DNA of 64,000 nucleotides from Lentilactobacillus hilgardii DSM 20176 = ATCC 8290. Its GTDB lineage: Bacteria > Bacillota > Bacilli > Lactobacillales > Lactobacillaceae. A model generated the notes under the pieces. It was not told the DNA's origin. It saw nothing but the letters and a program-made list of their open reading frames with translations, and made no database searches. Of this stretch, positions 2,097 to 10,076 are shown one piece after another. Numbering within the stretch: position 1 is the first letter of the stretch; each line of letters starts with the position of its first letter. The position numbers were made by a program, and so were the translations under genes. Location of the stretch: assembly GCF_000159315.1 (NCBI RefSeq), contig NZ_GG669994.1:360681-424680 (forward strand). Direction: 5' to 3'.

Positions 2097-3266
2097 ATGA
2101 AGCATATTTTTCCAACATATCAACAATTTCCAATGGAACTGGTTTCCGGTCACGACTGGCATTTGGTAGATAATGATGGCAAAGACTATTTGGATTTCAC
2201 CAGTGGTATCGGGGTTTGCAGCTTTGGTTACAGCAATGAATTGATTCAACAGAATGTTGTTGAGCAGCTTGGCAAGGTCTGGCATACATCAAATCTTTAT
2301 CCAAGCCAGCTGCAGGATGATGTAGCTGAAATGGTGACACCTGAAAGGATGCTGGCATTCTTCTGTAATTCGGGGACTGAAGCCAATGAAGCCGCTTTTA
2401 AGTTGGCTCGAAAGTATACGGGTAAGGCAAAGATTCTGGCATTTAAGAACGGCTTTCATGGCCGGACTTATGGATCAATGTCTTTGACTGGCAATCCGGA
2501 TATTCAAGCCGGTTTTGCACCCCTGGTTCCGGGAATTGATTTTGCTTCTTACAATGACTTTTCCTCGATTGATCAAATGACGTCGGACTATGCAGCAGTC
2601 ATTCTTGAAATTGTTCAAGGAGAAGGCGGTGTTGTGCCGGGAGATAGTCATTGGCTAAAAGCCGTCTCACAAAAATGTCATGAACTGGGTATCTTAATGA
2701 TTGTCGATGAAGTCCAAACGGGAATTGGCCGAACAGGTACGAAATTTGCCTATGAACAGTTTGACGTTGATCCGGATATCGTGACATGTGCCAAGGCGTT
2801 GGGAAATGGGCTGCCAATTGGTGCGATGCTCGGTAAAAAGAAACTGGCCAGTGCGTTTGCCCCCGGTTCACACGGGACAACCTTTGGTGGCAATAAAATC
2901 GCATTGTCTTCGGCAAAGGGTGTTCTGCAACAATTGACTCCAGACTTTTTAAAGATTGTTCAGGTGAAAAGTCAGGTTGTATTTGACGCATTGGAAAAAG
3001 CATTGAGGCCGCTATCGATTGTTAAAGATATTAGCGGTTTGGGATTAATGATCGGCATTCATTTAACCGGCAACGTTAAAGTAGGCGATGTCATTGCCGA
3101 TTTGCAACAACAGGGCATATTGACGCTATCAGCCGAACATAATACGTTACGATTATTGCCGCCACTGGTAATGAGTGAACATGATTTATTGGCAGGGGTT
3201 AATCTGATTCAAAATGAGTTGCAAAAGCAGGCTGTTTTAGAGAAATCGCCGATTGATCAGCTTTAA
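2097..3266 (+). CDS. argD: acetylornithine aminotransferase
   Basis: A PLP-dependent class III aminotransferase that converts N-acetylglutamate semialdehyde to N-acetylornithine. The 389-residue protein shows NSGTEANEAAFKLAR (phosphate-binding region), the cofactor-stacking GFHGRTYGS, IVDEVQTGIGRTG, and the Schiff-base lysine in TCAKALGNGLPIGA (Lys233). AGGAAGG precedes the ATG. It is last in the argJBD run and is closed by a strong terminator. ArgC (the reductase between ArgB and ArgD) is not in the window. Some family members also act on succinyl-diaminopimelate; the operon favours the arginine role. Confidence 0.93.
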   Translation: MKHIFPTYQQFPMELVSGHDWHLVDNDGKDYLDFTSGIGVCSFGYSNELIQQNVVEQLGKVWHTSNLYPSQLQDDVAEMVTPERMLAFFCNSGTEANEAAFKLARKYTGKAKILAFKNGFHGRTYGSMSLTGNPDIQAGFAPLVPGIDFASYNDFSSIDQMTSDYAAVILEIVQGEGGVVPGDSHWLKAVSQKCHELGILMIVDEVQTGIGRTGTKFAYEQFDVDPDIVTCAKALGNGLPIGAMLGKKKLASAFAPGSHGTTFGGNKIALSSAKGVLQQLTPDFLKIVQVKSQVVFDALEKALRPLSIVKDISGLGLMIGIHLTGNVKVGDVIADLQQQGILTLSAEHNTLRLLPPLVMSEHDLLAGVNLIQNELQKQAVLEKSPIDQL

Positions 3267-3276
3267 AAGGGCTATA

Positions 3277-3324
3277 AAAAAGAAGAAATTCACCATATTT
3301 TGAACTGGTGAATTTCTTCTTTTT
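3277..3324. terminator. bidirectional terminator between argD and the ybjQ-like gene
   Basis: A 19-bp stem (3277-3295 with 3306-3324) encloses a 10-nt loop. It is flanked by an A-run on the left and a T-run on the right, so it can stop transcription of both convergent genes. Confidence 0.93.
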
Positions 3325-3341
3325 GTTAGAGAAAATTTAAA

Positions 3342-3671
3342 TTAGTTTGTATACTTAACGGCTGTGCCATACGCAGCAACCGACTGCATATCGGCACCAA
3401 TCGACCCGGAGTCAAAACGCATCATCACCACGGCATCGGCACCCATTTTTTCTGCATTGGCCTGTAGGCGTTGAACAGAAACTTCCCTGGCTTCGTCAAG
3501 CATCTTCGTGTAGTCTTTAATTTCGCCACCAACGATGTTCTTTAAGCTGGCGCCGATATTTCTAACAACGTTTTTGGATTGAGTTGTTAAGCCGAAAACT
3601 TCTCCGATCACTTCATATTCCTTACCTGGAATATGTTCAGTCGTTGAAATAATAAATTTCTTGTCACTCAT
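3342..3671 (-). CDS. YbjQ / UPF0145 family protein
   Basis: A 109-residue cytoplasmic protein of the YbjQ (UPF0145) family, identifiable from the N-terminal [18 protein letters not shown], the central [29 protein letters not shown] and the C-terminal AYGTAV. These proteins form pentamers; the biochemical role is not established, although some databases call them heavy-metal-binding. The ATG at 3671 is preferred over an in-frame TTG at 3686 because GGGAG lies at a good distance before it. It converges with argD. A TATAAT box lies upstream (minus strand, about 3736-3741) without a clear -35. Confidence 0.85.
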
Positions 3672-3836
3672 AGGATCCACTCCCAACTACTTATTTGAGA
3701 CCTATACCCAAAATCAGCATTGCTGTCTCAATGGTTATTATACTAGTTTCGGCAAGAGGCTGGGGGATGATTGTCTGAGAAAATATGGTAATGGATAACG
3801 TTACGGCTTGGATAACGTCGCAGATTAAACCGCCTT

Positions 3837-5222
3837 TTAGTCCAACGGCGTACTTGATTTGAGTATCTCGGCCGGCCATAACATAAGTTGATAGCCATAT
3901 CCTTGTTGATCAAAGGTTAGACTTTCGCATTCACGTTTGGAAGTAAACGCGGTGTAATGGATATCATTGGCAGTAAAACTGCCGTCACGGACTGACTGGG
4001 TTGGAATGGACGTTAAAATATCATCTGTAACATAGTAAAGCCGGTCGTTTGCCGGATTATAGCTGACACCCTGGTTTGGGGATCCACCACGGTTCTTAAA
4101 GTAGGTTGGGGCAGCCTGGAACTGGACGTCGTGTTGGTCCAAACGACCATAGAAGAACATATACCCTAAACCATTTTTTCGACCCCAGTAGGCATTACCC
4201 TGTTTATCAAATGTCAGGGTGTGTAATTGTAAATTTCCGGAATCACCATGGTACATTTTAAAATTATACTGACGAAGTGGTTTTAAGGAGTCTGTTGTCA
4301 TTTCCAAAACGGTATTGTTTTGATCGCGTGTCTTTAAATCCGTGAGTGTATTATCTTCTACAATGTAAAGGTGTTTATTTTGTGGATTAAAAGAGAGCGT
4401 TTGACCGTGACCGATGTCGACTTGCGGACTTAATTGAGCTGCCTGGGCAACTGCCGCGTATTTAAACAGATCAGGATTCTGTTGCTTAATGCGCTTGATT
4501 TGTTTTTGATCCGTTTCAAGTTGGTTTTCCAATGCAGACAGTTTCTGTCGATTAGCCTTGGTAGCATCTTTTTTGCTTGTTGTTGACTGAAGGTTTTGGA
4601 CCTCGGATTTGACCTTTTTGAGGTCGACATTTGGTGCCTTTAACTGTTCATAAGCATCCTCATATTGTTGATTATGTTGAACGCCTTCGTCTGTGTAGGG
4701 GTTAAAGTAGTTAAAAGCATTCCAGACAATCATCGGATCGGAACCGGCACCTAATTTATTTAAATCTGCTAAATTATATTTAACAATGACGCCTAAATTT
4801 GTGTCACTTCCGTTTGATTCAATAAAATACATATTTCCAGAGTCGTCAAGGGTCACACTTTGAAAGTTACCATGCTGATAATTGGTGACATTGAAGCCAT
4901 CCGGCAGGTATAATTTGGTTTGTAAAGTGGTTTGTTGGGTGCTATCCGGCGTTGTCGAATAAGATTCAACAGTTCCCGGATCGTTTTCATCGATCGTTCT
5001 TTCAATATATTTTCGATCCATGTTTCCTTTGGGTGTCGTGTTGTCAATGACGTTAAGGTTCTTCTGGGTGTAATCTTTCAACACGTTACCGGCGTTAACC
5101 TGGGAAATATTGTTGGCAGGATCGGGCGCGTCGAGAACGTCTGCCGAGACAACTTGTGTTAGACAAAGCATACTAATAAAAGAAAATAAAAGCAGTGCGA
5201 CTGGCTTTAAACGAGTCTTCAT
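3837..5222 (-). CDS. secreted protein with propeller-like repeats and a coiled-coil insert
   Basis: The 461-residue product has a clear signal peptide (KTRLK, hydrophobic LLLFSFISMLCL, cleavage after VVSA, about residue 27) and no membrane anchor or LPXTG motif, so it should be released or wall-associated. Three segments of the type T-L/F-D-x-x-G-x-x-Y (SVTLDDSGNMYFIE, TLTFDKQGNAYWGR, SLTFDQQGYGYQLM) suggest beta-propeller blades. A charged helical stretch, about residues 190-250, looks like a coiled coil inserted between blades. The start is ATG 5222 after AAGGGA; an upstream in-frame TTG overlaps that site. It lies 36 nt behind the broken S-layer-type gene and probably shares its transcript. 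Function not recognised. Confidence 0.75.
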   Translation of the reverse strand: MKTRLKPVALLLFSFISMLCLTQVVSADVLDAPDPANNISQVNAGNVLKDYTQKNLNVIDNTTPKGNMDRKYIERTIDENDPGTVESYSTTPDSTQQTTLQTKLYLPDGFNVTNYQHGNFQSVTLDDSGNMYFIESNGSDTNLGVIVKYNLADLNKLGAGSDPMIVWNAFNYFNPYTDEGVQHNQQYEDAYEQLKAPNVDLKKVKSEVQNLQSTTSKKDATKANRQKLSALENQLETDQKQIKRIKQQNPDLFKYAAVAQAAQLSPQVDIGHGQTLSFNPQNKHLYIVEDNTLTDLKTRDQNNTVLEMTTDSLKPLRQYNFKMYHGDSGNLQLHTLTFDKQGNAYWGRKNGLGYMFFYGRLDQHDVQFQAAPTYFKNRGGSPNQGVSYNPANDRLYYVTDDILTSIPTQSVRDGSFTANDIHYTAFTSKRECESLTFDQQGYGYQLMLWPAEILKSSTPLD

Positions 5223-5258
5223 TTGATTTCGTCCCTTCAATAATTAATGAGTTGATGA

Positions 5259-6896
5259 CTAATTTGTCGTAGCTTGGGCATTATCGGCACTGACATTGAT
5301 ACTAACCGAGCTGCCGAATTTGGCTGCACCAATTGTGGCAAGATCGGCATCCGACAATTTATTATCAGTTAATGAATAACCGGTTCCATCCAAAGCCGTG
5401 ATTGCTTCGTTCGTAATCGCGGTATTGTCCTCGGATCTTAATGTCCAGTTATTACCGGATTGAACGCCCAAGTCGGATCCTTTAGGTGCCGGATCGTCTG
5501 CATCAGTGTTTGTGTAATCGATGGAAGTGACGATTTTTTTGGTTGAAGGATCGACAAAATTAATTCTGACAGCGTTATCCGAAATGTCTGTTGTCTTGGT
5601 CGTTGTCTTCAGGTACACTGAATTTCCGAATTGGGCGTTAGCCAGTTGTTCAAGCTGCGAGGACGATAAAGCATTTAATGAATAACCCGTAGATTTAAGT
5701 GCCGTCTTAATATCAGCCTGGATGGCGTTTTGATCATCACTTGAGAGTCCGGTGGTTCCATTATCGGTTGCTGCGAGTGATTGGCCGGCAGAAGCACCCG
5801 GTTTGGTATAATTAAAAGAACCAATGACGCCATCCGTTTGATTAATAATGTTGATTTGAACAGCATCATTCGGTATTGAATCCGCTTGTGCAGCTGTTAG
5901 TGATGTTTTGCCACCAACGGTTGCTTCGGCGAGATAACCAGTTTGGCTGGCCGAAAGCGTTTCTAATGAATAACCTGTTCCTTTCAGTGCATCTCTGATA
6001 TTGTCCTGGAGTTTCTGCTGATCCAAGGCCCCTAACAGCCAAACTTCGGTGCCGTCATCCGAATAAGAAAGACCGAGTGTTTTCCCGGATTGGGCGTTTG
6101 GCTTTTGATAATCGATATATTTTATCAGTTGTCCGCTGCTGTTAACCAAATCGATACGAACTGCAGTACCGGAAAGGGGATCCTCAGCTTGGGACAATCC
6201 TTTGTAAAGAATCCAGCCGTTAAGTTTAGCCGCTGTTTGGTCAACGCTTGTCACATGAACCCAAGTGTCTCCTTCTCGAGTCCTGGTGCCCATTTTATCA
6301 ATTTTAAACGCGGCATTTTTATAGGCAACGGCATCTCCAACTGTCCTGCCGGCCCCATAAACCGTGTTCATTGGTTCTGTATATGTAACACTTTTACCAT
6401 CGTTGTTCATTCCGGGTGCCGCAATGTTAAATGTGTACTTGGCTAAATTAGTTGGTAGCGGGATTTCCTTGAAAGCTGTGAATTTTTCCAAATCACCGGC
6501 AAATTTTCCGACGTGTTTGCCACCGTAAATCCAACCCCGATACTGTCCGTCAAAAGAAACAATTTTATAATAAACCTGACCATTTTTTGTGGTTGCCTGC
6601 CGGTAGGCAACAAAATTATCGGCCGATGAATCCGATTTTGCCAGTTCTTTGAGCGCAACCTTGCTGATAACCTCCTAGGCTCCCTTTTTGACGGATGGCT
6701 TTGTGTAGAGGGCAGTGGTTCCTGTGAATGTGACGTTACGGTTTTGTGCGTCTGTTGTTAACTTTTGATTGTTGGTAATTTGTTCAGGTACGTGAGCAGC
6801 ACTGGCTTGAGAAGCGATTAACAAAGTGCCGGTTGAAAATAGGCTAAAAGCTGCTAAGCCAAGCACAATCGGACTTTTCCACTTAAACTTATTCAA
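5259..6896 (-). pseudogene. S-layer-type secreted protein gene interrupted by an in-frame amber codon
   Basis: Read through one TAG, a single frame of 545 codons runs from TTG 6896 (GGAGG at 6905-6909) to the stop at 5259. It has a signal peptide (KWKSPIVLGLAAFSLF to ASQASA, about residue 33). Two wall-binding-like segments follow: ALYTKPSVKKGA, then VYYKIVSFDGQYRGWIYGGK, and TREGDTWVHVTS with GWILYKG. Three repeats of about 100 residues end the protein. The N-terminal pattern resembles brevis/buchneri-type S-layer proteins (recalled, not searched). TAG is codon 74 (6675-6677), directly after KKGA, and the frame is otherwise intact, so the native product would be a 73-residue stub. Recent nonsense mutation, a silent paralogue or a sequencing error are all possible. 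No in-frame restart codon lies close behind the stop. Confidence 0.85.
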
Positions 6897-7044
6897 AATA
6901 TAAACCTCCAAACGATTTCTATACATTAGTGAGTACGATATGATGATACCGTGAAATTGTAGTCGAAAATTGGAATTGACAGAACTTTTACCGGACGTAT
7001 ACGGAGATTTTACATTGTTTGAAAATAAGTAGTGAAAAAATAAA

Positions 7045-7068
7045 CCGCTTCTCATTTCTGAGAAGCGG
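7045..7068 (-). terminator. terminator-like hairpin in the leader of the S-layer-type gene
   Basis: CCGCTTCTC pairs with GAGAAGCGG (10 bp counting the inner A-T) around a 4-nt loop. On the minus strand it is followed by a U-rich run (TTTATTTTTT). It lies about 55-78 nt after the predicted start site and about 150 nt before the start codon, so it could end transcription early or act as a 5' stabilising hairpin. Confidence 0.6.
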
Positions 7069-7128
7069 CAAGTGCACTTGTGAGACGCCTAATGTGGTTT
7101 AGAAGATCGTCATCACTATGCAGTAAAT

Positions 7129-7157
7129 ATTATAACGTACATCGTCAGGTTTGACAA
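7129..7157 (-). promoter_or_regulatory. promoter of the S-layer-type gene
   Basis: On the minus strand TTGTCA (7152-7157) is separated by exactly 17 nt from a perfect TATAAT (7129-7134). This implies a 5' untranslated region of about 225 nt before TTG 6896. Long leaders are known for lactobacillus S-layer genes. Confidence 0.8.
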
Positions 7158-7163
7158 AGGCTT

Positions 7164-7215
7164 ATGTGAAAACGGATTAAACTTTCTTACTGAATAATGG
7201 GTAACGTTTTCACAT
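7164..7215. promoter_or_regulatory. 11-bp inverted repeat between divergent genes
   Basis: ATGTGAAAACG (7164-7174) and CGTTTTCACAT (7205-7215) are perfect inverted copies 30 nt apart. They lie just upstream of the minus-strand -35 and about 150 nt before the plus-strand acetyltransferase. The half-site contains TGAAAACG, similar to half of a CcpA cre box, but neither arm is a full cre. The bound regulator is unknown. Confidence 0.5.
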
Positions 7216-7363
7216 GAAAAAGTTAAGGTGATTATGATTGTTCAGCAATGCTTGATTAAGCTTCTTTTGTCGAGTTATGGTTGAATGAGAATGACCAGGC
7301 GTCTAATGATCAATTAGGAGGAACCGCTAACTAATATCAAAGCTGATTGGAGGGCTGTTAGAA

Positions 7364-7840
7364 ATGAAAGTGTATTTGGAAACCGTTAATTGTGATCGTC
7401 AAAATTACCTTAGTTTTTTGAAACTTGCGGATCCCGATGAAACAGTGGTTAAAAGCTATCTTGATTCGGGAGAATTGTTTAAAATTGTGGTGGGGGATAA
7501 AGTGGTTGGCGTTCTTCATTTAGTTGAGATTGATGATGAGACACTTGAAATCAAGAATATAGCGATTTTACCCGAATACCGAGGGCGGCATATTGGTTCA
7601 ACAGCACTTCAAAGCCTTATTGAACTTTGTCGAGGCAATCATTATAAGCGGATATATGTCGGAACAGCCAACTCCAGTATCGAAAACTTCAAATTTTATC
7701 AAAAAAATGGCTTCCGATTTGATCATATTGTACCCGATTTTTTCTTGAATTATGATCAATCGATTTATGAAAATGGCATTCAGGCACTGGATATGCTTTA
7801 TTTGGTGTATCGGTTTGATGATAAAAAGAAAGAGGATTAG
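7364..7840 (+). CDS. GNAT family N-acetyltransferase
   Basis: A 158-residue single-domain acetyltransferase of the GCN5 fold. The acetyl-CoA pyrophosphate-binding motif A is seen as IKNIAILPEYRGRHIGSTAL (R-G-x-x-I-G), followed by YVGTANSSIENFKFYQKNGF, a usual motif B. The substrate cannot be told. The ATG at 7364 has GGAGG about 10 nt upstream. The RluA-type gene begins 1 nt after the stop and has its Shine-Dalgarno inside this gene, so the two are coupled. Confidence 0.85.
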   Translation: MKVYLETVNCDRQNYLSFLKLADPDETVVKSYLDSGELFKIVVGDKVVGVLHLVEIDDETLEIKNIAILPEYRGRHIGSTALQSLIELCRGNHYKRIYVGTANSSIENFKFYQKNGFRFDHIVPDFFLNYDQSIYENGIQALDMLYLVYRFDDKKKED

Positions 7841-7841
7841 A

Positions 7842-8717
7842 TTGAAATTTACTTGGCAAAAACAATCAAATGAACCAAAGACGCTAAAAAAGTTTTTAAA
7901 TACTCACGGAATCAGTCATCGAATGTATAAGAATATCAAGACCAGTGGGCAAGTTTTGATAAACAGTCGATCAAGTGATAGTCAGACTAAACTTGCGGAT
8001 GGTGATCAAGTGACGGTTATTTTACCTGATGAAGCCGGTGACCCAAACGTTGCTGTTAGTGAACAACCAATCAAAGTGGTTTATGAAGATGATAACTGGC
8101 TGGTTGTCGATAAACCGGCAGGCTTAACGGTAGTACCGGGACCTGCTAATCGTGACGATACTTTGGTAAATCGGGTGAAAGGATATTTGGTGCGAGCCGG
8201 CGCAACAGACATGGTGCCACATATTATCACCAGATTGGACCGTTTTACCAGTGGCTTGGTCTTAATTGCAAAGCATCGGTTGGCAAATAGCCTGGCAAAC
8301 GAACTGTTGGCAGCCAAACAGCTCCATAAACGTTACTTAGCGGTTGTGAGTGGTGTTGGTTTGCCGGATCATGGTCGAATTCAAAAACCGATTGCAAAGG
8401 ATCCAAATGGGTATGGTCAGATCATTTCAGATGATGGCCGCTTTTCGGATACCGAATATTGGGTGAGGCAGCGCTTAAATGATGATATGCTGGTGGAGGT
8501 TGCCTTACACACGGGGCGTACCCATCAAATCAGAGTTCATTTTGCGTCTATAGGTCATCCGTTACTGGGCGATCAACTGTATCATGGCCCGATGAATATG
8601 GGAATTGATCGACAAGCACTTCACGCGGTGATGTTAGGTTTTAATGATCCGTTCTCTCAATCGGAGATTAAGCTTAAAAGCCCGTTACCAAAAGATATGA
8701 GCTCAATTTTAGATTAA
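7842..8717 (+). CDS. RluA-family RNA pseudouridine synthase
   Basis: Converts specific uridines in rRNA or tRNA to pseudouridine. The catalytic block is HIITRLDRFTSGLVLIAKH (aspartate in R-L-D), followed by KRYLAVV, the HTGRTHQIRVHFASIGHPLLGD block and a conserved C-terminus. The N-terminal segment (LKKFLNTHGISHRMYKNIKTSGQVLINS) is S4-like, as in RluD-type enzymes. The TTG at 7842 is chosen because AGAGGA precedes it, giving 291 residues; an ATG at 7818 in the same frame is an alternative that overlaps the acetyltransferase. Target uridines are not predictable from this. Confidence 0.88.
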   Translation: MKFTWQKQSNEPKTLKKFLNTHGISHRMYKNIKTSGQVLINSRSSDSQTKLADGDQVTVILPDEAGDPNVAVSEQPIKVVYEDDNWLVVDKPAGLTVVPGPANRDDTLVNRVKGYLVRAGATDMVPHIITRLDRFTSGLVLIAKHRLANSLANELLAAKQLHKRYLAVVSGVGLPDHGRIQKPIAKDPNGYGQIISDDGRFSDTEYWVRQRLNDDMLVEVALHTGRTHQIRVHFASIGHPLLGDQLYHGPMNMGIDRQALHAVMLGFNDPFSQSEIKLKSPLPKDMSSILD

Positions 8718-8818
8718 AATAATACTCATCTTGCTCACTGCGTAACGTTGTTAGAACAAGGCTTAAAATGATGCGCTGAATCGATAATGAGAATTTACTA
8801 AAATCGGAGGCATTCCGG

Positions 8819-8847
8819 TTGAAGTTTCCCCGGCTTCACGTTATGAT
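8819..8847 (+). promoter_or_regulatory. promoter of the 57-residue gene
   Basis: TTGAAG (8819-8824), 17 nt, TATGAT (8842-8847), about 30 nt before the start codon. It suggests that the small gene is transcribed separately from the pseudouridine synthase. Confidence 0.55.
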
Positions 8848-8877
8848 AGCGGTATCAAATTAAGGAGGAGACTAGAT

Positions 8878-9051
8878 ATGTCTACCGAAGAGACCGATTT
8901 GACGGTCAAAAAAATTATTGCAGAATTAGAAAACAACGTTTCCGTGCTTGCATGGTTAAAGGATAACAAGAACGACGAGGAAGCCCAGAAGCATATTAAG
9001 GCGATTAAAGACGCGTTATCCAAAGCGAAGACTGATTTAATTAAGGCATAA
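8878..9051 (+). CDS. small helical protein of unknown function (57 aa)
   Basis: An ATG frame of 57 residues with a strong GGAGGAG site (8864-8870) and its own promoter. The protein is highly charged and should be mostly helical: KKIIAELENNVSVLAWLK followed by AQKHIKAIKDALSKAKTDL, resembling a two-helix hairpin. There is no signal peptide or membrane segment. No family was recognised. The good Shine-Dalgarno, the charge pattern and the downstream terminator support a real gene. Confidence 0.65.
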   Translation: MSTEETDLTVKKIIAELENNVSVLAWLKDNKNDEEAQKHIKAIKDALSKAKTDLIKA

Positions 9052-9209
9052 TGTTGTGTTGTTAGCGAGTTTGACCGGAATAATGTCTGATATTTCTATG
9101 TTCTTGGGTTTATGATATTGTGATGATTGTTAAGGTTGGATAAGCAGTCTTAATATTGAGTTCTGTGTTTGGTTAGGCAGCTCCTTTTACGACTGGAAAT
9201 TAAATTAAG

Positions 9210-9247
9210 AACGTCTTACTGATATAATGTTGGTAAGGCGTTTTTTT
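9210..9247 (+). terminator. terminator
   Basis: AACGTCTTACT (9210-9220) pairs with GGTAAGGCGTT (9232-9242), 11 bp with two G-U pairs, followed by seven T. It ends the unit of the 57-residue gene. The loop contains TATAAT, which may be chance. Confidence 0.75.
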
Positions 9248-9293
9248 ATACTAAAAATTAGCGATTAACTTGTGAATCAAGGGGGATCTCCAC

Positions 9294-10076
9294 ATGGCAG
9301 AGGAACAAACGGCAATTTGTTTTATTGACCATCAAAAACATATGGTGATTGATGGACGGTATTTAAGGGATTTAGAACCGGCGACCCGGAATTTAATTAA
9401 AAGTGAGTACCCGTCCGCAAAGGTAACGGATTTTATTTGTGATCACGATTTATTGAAATATCAGTTGATGCGTGTTGACGGAATGGTTAAATCGGATGTG
9501 AAGCAAACTCGAAAAATCAATCGGCGACTCACTCGGGCGATGCAAAGTGATGATTATGAAATTGTTGATGTGAACGAGAATTTGGAGAGGACGCTAACAA
9601 TGGGCCAGCGTATTTCGGATGCTGTTGCCCGCTTTGGTGGTAGTTGGGGATTCATCGGTATTTTCACGTCTGTGTTAATTGCTTGGATGTTTGTCAATGG
9701 GGCCAGTCTATTCGGCATTCACTTTGATCCGTTTCCATTTATTCTGCTTAATTTGGGACTAAGCTGTATTGCGGCAATTCAGGCGCCTATCATTATGATG
9801 AGTCAAAATAGGGCTGCCGATCGTGACCGAATGAATTCCGAAAATGACTATCATGTTAACTTGAAGTCCGAACACGAATTGAGAATCTTACATGCAAAAT
9901 TAGATAACTTAACTCAAAATCAATTACCACACACACTTGAAATTCAAAAGTTGGAAATTGAAATTCTGGGACAAATTCGAAATGAATTAGATGAACTTCA
10001 TCGAGAAAAGGCCGGTCAATTTTCAAATGATCAACAAGATGGTGAAAAAGATGAGAAAGAGACGTCGGATCAATAA
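9294..10076 (+). CDS. DUF1003 family membrane protein
   Basis: A 260-residue protein with a soluble N-terminal half (about 1-110), two adjacent membrane helices (GFIGIFTSVLIAWMFVNG and FILLNLGLSCIAAIQAPIIM) and a charged helical C-terminal tail. The block around the helices, TMGQRISDAVARFGGSWGFIG and PFILLNLGLSCIAAIQAPIIMMSQNR, is the hallmark of DUF1003, found in many bacteria; its function is unknown and is sometimes linked to metal transport by neighbourhood. GGGGGA lies before the ATG. It is a single gene, preceded by a terminator. Confidence 0.85.
   Translation: MAEEQTAICFIDHQKHMVIDGRYLRDLEPATRNLIKSEYPSAKVTDFICDHDLLKYQLMRVDGMVKSDVKQTRKINRRLTRAMQSDDYEIVDVNENLERTLTMGQRISDAVARFGGSWGFIGIFTSVLIAWMFVNGASLFGIHFDPFPFILLNLGLSCIAAIQAPIIMMSQNRAADRDRMNSENDYHVNLKSEHELRILHAKLDNLTQNQLPHTLEIQKLEIEILGQIRNELDELHREKAGQFSNDQQDGEKDEKETSDQ

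Follow-up and report, generated by a model that had tools for sequence, protein, structure and literature searches.

In the present study we have followed up an interrupted surface protein gene of Lentilactobacillus hilgardii DSM 20176 = ATCC 8290, a lactic acid bacterium of the food type, and our results indicate that this slp-like gene is probably a recently inactivated nonsense allele, that is, a pseudogene, in a redundant Slp-type family, and that the protein has most likely simply been lost. The gene lies in a stretch of 64,000 nucleotides, here called the window, on one contig (NZ_GG669994.1, our C111) of a draft assembly that comprises 2.72 Mb in 113 contigs. Its frame runs on the minus strand from a TTG start codon at 6896-6894 down to 5259 and holds a single in-frame TAG at 6677-6675, which is codon 74; behind it 471 codons remain open (6674-5259) up to the natural TAG at 5261-5259. 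An earlier note on this DNA had described one gene split by a single amber codon with an intact 3' part and a Shine-Dalgarno sequence ahead, and all of this is borne out. The Shine-Dalgarno GGAGG lies at 6909-6905 on the minus strand, kept as TTTGGAGGT 5' of the orthologues in the window and in three other species, and L. farraginis has the same TTG-AAT start behind the same Shine-Dalgarno. By inspection, the first 73 codons (6896-6678) encode a signal-peptide-like start, typical to the eye, and the beginning of a basic N-terminal domain, while the codons behind the stop encode the remainder of that domain and three repeats of about 90 residues. At the local base composition, 471 codons would stay open by chance with a probability of about 1.6e-12, and the post-stop frame is 76% identical to an intact orthologue; we are thus dealing with one gene and not with a chance frame. 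As a control, we took the non-overlapping ORFs of the window that reach 120 aa, 58 in all, and looked for a long open extension behind the stop, which five of them have. The four besides the slp-like gene were rejected as split genes, each being a pair of distinct adjacent genes that share a frame (from their translations we take them to be rpoB/rpoC, ctsR/clpC, rpsG/fusA and ecfT/truA), and the slp-like gene is the sole single split gene in this set.

Its domains mark the encoded product as a surface protein of the Slp type known from L. brevis, here in a Lentilactobacillus form. Identity to SlpB of L. brevis ATCC 14869 is 40% over 310 residues (E 2e-66) for the intact orthologue of L. farraginis; SlpB is taken here as the ORF L053:5767-7239, identified by its KAYRGW motif, which PMC2571106 reports for that protein. 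The two proteins are alike in their signal-peptide-like start and basic N-terminal half (pI 9.47 in the L. farraginis orthologue, residues 35-240, against 9.87 in SlpB), whereas their C-terminal halves have only weak local similarity and the slp-like protein carries three repeats. The remainder of the L. farraginis orthologue has a pI of 4.68, a layout of basic N-terminal half and acidic rest that resembles L. brevis SlpA, and in the window the protein part from the stop up to residue 240 is likewise basic (pI 9.12). For SlpA, PMC2571106 states that the N-terminal 145 residues are enough to bind the wall and that the C-terminal part self-assembles, so a similar attachment of the slp-like protein to the wall may be supposed. 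The three C-terminal repeats of the L. farraginis orthologue share 32/82, 30/93 and 39/83 aligned residues in pairwise comparisons. A structure model of this orthologue, built from a 10-row alignment (mean pLDDT 66.6), reaches a pLDDT of 71-93 in the repeat blocks except at their end and falls below 50 for residues 1-94 and 160-190, and therefore says little on the N-terminal fold. Its repeat 341-429 was superposed on the C1 domain of L. brevis SlpM (PDB 9m6y) with Z 9.4 and an rmsd of 2.2 over 84/92 residues, the next row having Z 6.3, and Foldseek gave the SlpM C1 chain a probability of 1.00, though only at rank 8 by E-value (5.6e-3); of the further rows in these two comparisons no use was made. 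The likeness thus concerns the fold of one repeat; the identity is 19-23%, the slp-like protein has three tandem copies, and the profile match to SlpM C1 is weak (E 0.1, behind four unrelated chains). Pfam and NCBIfam gave no match above the cut-off for the slp-like protein. The description of the gene as S-layer type therefore holds for the domains, with an SlpB-kind N-terminal half and an SlpM-C1-kind repeat; formation of a lattice would be a further, hypothetical property.

How widespread is the gene, and what stands at codon 74 elsewhere? Among 60 related genomes, the protein part behind the stop has matches in 24, its own included, which are all 24 of Lentilactobacillus and none of the 36 outside the genus. 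A profile of ten orthologues found matches in 34 of 201 family genomes and in 9 of 40 genera; those outside Lentilactobacillus, among the matches listed, concern mostly the N-terminal part, and the named relatives include Levilactobacillus and Secundilactobacillus. These relatives were retrieved by an alignment query, a single-protein query of the genome contigs having given no match. The nearest named relatives of the gene are those of L. farraginis and L. raoultii, and PMC8038741 places the 16S of L. hilgardii close to that of L. farraginis. In 13 of the 24 Lentilactobacillus genomes, the window included, the slp-like gene adjoins the same downstream neighbour (5222-3837 on the minus strand in the window), whose 461-aa product is secreted-type by eye; relatives of this 461-residue protein are also found elsewhere in many of the 24 genomes. 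The alignment of the translated frame that the earlier note had proposed could be made with the 12 other syntenic orthologues, and their codon-74 column, in which the calls for the more distant members depend on the alignment, holds Gln in four, Arg in three, His in two, Lys in two and Ile in one, and a stop in none. Such varied sense codons indicate that the column is free to vary and that the TAG is private to the window genome among those examined. The two nearest relatives have glutamine codons here and not AAG, which the note had given as an example; a lysine codon stands in the third nearest. In eleven of the 12 orthologues the frame is open and begins with ATG or TTG ahead of the signal-peptide-like part. 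The remaining one, in L. parafarraginis, has an in-frame TGA of its own at codon 5, between the Shine-Dalgarno and the signal peptide, and is one codon shorter near this TGA in the alignment. The gene thus presents a disrupting stop together with intact orthologues at the same locus, as defines a nonsense pseudogene, and an old pseudogene, in which relatives would share the TAG and carry many further stops, is not what the relatives display.

The long frame without visible decay behind the stop could also be read as the mark of programmed amber read-through, which would yield a small amount of full-length surface protein. We consider this extremely unlikely, since the TAG is not conserved in any of the 12 other orthologues and the means of reading it were not found. 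None of the 54 tRNA genes has a CUA anticodon (ARAGORN at 55 Rfam places, with 150 of 215 first-look candidates scored, a search that could miss an odd tRNA), and a suppressor tRNA was rejected on this ground. TAG is an ordinary stop in the window, where it ends 11 of the 58 ORFs with short extensions behind it except in two gene pairs and the slp-like gene, and a genome-wide amber reassignment was rejected as well. The stop codon is, moreover, overlapped by a Shine-Dalgarno-like sequence, TAGGAGG at 6677-6671, from whose AGGAGG a second protein could be started on the rest of the gene after termination. This re-initiation was also rejected, and we give it hardly any credence, because no in-frame ATG, GTG or TTG lies at a workable distance: the nearest TTG start listed, at 6658, is out of frame and opens 71 codons, and in the right frame the list has its first start at 6491. 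Any such product would be without a signal peptide.

The loss appears to be recent. The 544 remaining codons could be turned into stops by 213 one-step changes, and no further stop is present. In sequence free of constraint, stops would build up at 55-71 per neutral substitution per site, which sets a 95% limit on the unconstrained time of 0.042-0.054 substitutions per site, with a median of about 0.01. The synonymous distances between the window gene and its nearest relatives are saturated, beyond the correction limit, so that dN/dS is not computable for pairs with the window gene; set against them, a loss younger than 0.042-0.054 is recent relative to the divergence of the species, within the assumptions of the two estimates. 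Unique amino-acid changes were also counted. With L. parafarraginis as outgroup, 52 fall to the window gene and 41 to L. farraginis, and in the comparison with L. raoultii 48 fall to the window gene and 52 to L. raoultii; the window gene has 53 against 40 in L. farraginis with L. raoultii as outgroup, and 53 against 65 in L. raoultii with L. farraginis as outgroup. In the same four comparisons the downstream neighbour has 16 against 22, 10 against 12, 23 against 28, and 23 against 14. Amino-acid change therefore does not seem clearly faster in the window slp gene, although 52 against 41 and 53 against 40 would leave room for a slight relaxation. The earlier proposal of a recent loss of a surface protein is upheld, which the open frames of 11 of the 12 other orthologues, the lack of further decay and the repeats kept upstream of the gene all support.

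These upstream repeats differ from the promoter that the note had assigned to the gene. Its "good promoter", TTGTCA-17-TATAAT at 7157-7129 on the minus strand, is followed by a terminator-like hairpin at 7069-7044 before the slp gene begins, and probably belongs to another, small-RNA-like unit rather than to the slp gene. The conserved region directly ahead of the gene consists instead of four hexamers in an 11-bp register (TGTAAA, CGTATA, GGTAAA and TGTCAA) at 7014-6976, a putative response-regulator site, and of TATCAT at 6948-6943, whose position is conserved in the alignment and which is a candidate for the -10 element of the gene's own promoter. All 13 orthologous upstream regions have such an array, the best one per region scoring 17-22 of 24, even if single hexamers are poor in some species. 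This score was reached in none of 500 single-base shuffles in 12 regions, and in one of 500 in the thirteenth. The repeats resemble WalR-type sites and may be a candidate site for this regulator, but PhoP and further members of the OmpR family have sites of much the same appearance.

The stretch from 7157 to 7044 itself has the appearance of a gene for a small RNA: it has a promoter match and a terminator to itself, and a predicted transcript at 7122-7044 on the minus strand. Since promoter and terminator matches, taken as classes, show no enrichment over shuffled sequence in this region (promoters 12 vs 8.5 +/- 3.3; terminators 5 vs 4.0 +/- 2.5), the case for the small RNA rests on conservation. 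Between promoter and terminator, hardly any difference separates the window from L. farraginis and L. raoultii, the terminator sequence varies between species, and the candidate of about 80 bases matches 15 of 24 Lentilactobacillus genomes by BLAST. A covariance model run on 201 family genomes found it in six, all among the nine congeners drawn, under strict filters and with 22 candidates scored per listed genome. The base pairs of its hairpin, which hardly varies, gave no covariation, and an Rfam scan of 3000-9500 returned nothing relevant, its two hits being weak miRNA matches at 3277-3324.

Could the stop be a wrong base in the assembly, and the gene be intact? The window comes from a draft, and everything around the codon is in order, as such an error would leave it. 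Single isolated stops are found in other family members in other genomes as well, several of them also drafts, and we think an error unlikely. A search with the N-terminal domain gave 253 matches in 24 congeners, and at least nine among those listed, the window's own included, have a stop inside the domain. In five, the frame is open but for a single stop (the window, G012, G011:C208, G015:C1 and G013:C70, of which G013:C70 is cut 5' by its contig). Two copies have frame changes next to the start (G001:321152 and G006:1865060) and another two carry more than one break (G001:322517 and G007:397277); one further copy, G006:1852713, has a late TAG, and a fragment in the window's own genome has a TAA. 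Broken members are thus not rare in the slp family among the matches listed, several of the genomes concerned being drafts. The loci L182, L174, L175, L177 and L178 are such family members of other Lentilactobacillus genomes, with one stop in a frame that is open elsewhere. The number of family matches per genome across the genus ranges from 2 to 23, and the window's own genome has 9 or 10, several of them with long open frames. On another contig of this genome a cluster of surface protein genes contains runs of N, and its gene content is uncertain.

Another explanation is that the stop is a strain-level polymorphism kept in the population, in which point mutations and their reversion make on and off alleles alternate, for instance because phages or the host select on the surface coat. 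The recent origin of the stop, the repeats kept upstream and the several single-stop open copies in the genus would fit this, as would the independent codon-5 stop of the L. parafarraginis orthologue. A recent random loss explains the same facts. No homopolymer of six or more bases occurs at the stop, the A6 and A7 runs in the gene both being far from it, and the longest exact word that the gene shares with any of nine family loci of its own genome has 17 bases. A recombinational silent cassette was rejected for this divergence of the paralogues, and the phase-like variant suggested earlier finds no support, there being no repeat tract at the stop and no close donor among the paralogue regions of the own genome that were compared. 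We therefore hold a polymorphism of this kind to be very unlikely. Similarly, it seems quite improbable that Lentilactobacillus keeps a pool of surface-layer genes switched by single nonsense mutations near the 5' end and by their reversion, as a slow change of the coat at the population level; if this were true, the window allele and the early stop in L. parafarraginis would be two off states of one gene. Together, the lack of a tract, the sharing of no more than 17 bases, the lack of a CUA tRNA and the lack of a usable start make slippage, gene conversion, read-through and re-initiation unlikely, and ordinary gene decay, not a hidden switch, is most likely the event that we see.

We propose the following picture. 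Where the gene is intact, in the relatives, its product, with about 540 residues and in several species about 700, would be exported by its signal peptide and held on the wall by the basic SlpB-kind domain, with the SlpM-C1-kind repeats exposed, as work on L. brevis suggests for binding and exposure. Translation in the window strain would end inside the basic wall-binding domain, and no more than a short exported peptide is expected. As no in-frame start followed by a signal peptide occurs after the TAG, a surface protein would not be regained by re-initiation. The loss is presumably tolerated because the genome has further members of the family whose frames are open.

Events of this kind are already known, surface protein pseudogenes with stops or frameshifts having been described in L. 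helveticus, where they affect surface proteins with S-layer domains (PMC5797582). As in the window, surface protein genes are inactivated there in some strains; unlike in the window, they belong to other protein families (prtH3 and peptidoglycan hydrolases). For L. hilgardii FLUB, PMC8038741 counts 93 pseudogenes. The earlier note had also mentioned silent lactobacillus S-layer genes. One of these is slpB of L. acidophilus NCFM, given in PMC6015585 as a silent or conditionally expressed S-layer gene; another, slpC of L. brevis ATCC 14869, was considered silent until PMC9504196 reported the SlpC protein after all. The slp-like gene resembles them in being an unmade member of a multi-gene surface-layer set, but they are silent at the level of expression, whereas here the reading frame itself is broken. 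In the literature that we searched on silent, broken or other S-layer genes of these bacteria, no listed title or opening of an abstract names the slp-like gene. The main value of the window gene is as a clear case of a surface-coat gene lost recently, within a genus whose genomes have 2 to 23 family matches, and it warns that the coat of a strain cannot be read from gene counts alone. The better leads may be the regulatory repeat array kept 5' of the slp gene in 13 genomes and the conserved small-RNA candidate adjacent to it.

Copies of the family outside the chromosomal contigs were also looked for. A pattern scan of viral contigs gave no further copy of the stop-bearing gene. Plasmids hold distant slp relatives only, none covering 80% of the query; one of them, on the L. 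hilgardii plasmid NZ_CP047124.1 (25685-26593), is 30.5% identical across 56% of the query, which shows that a plasmid can carry a member of the family.
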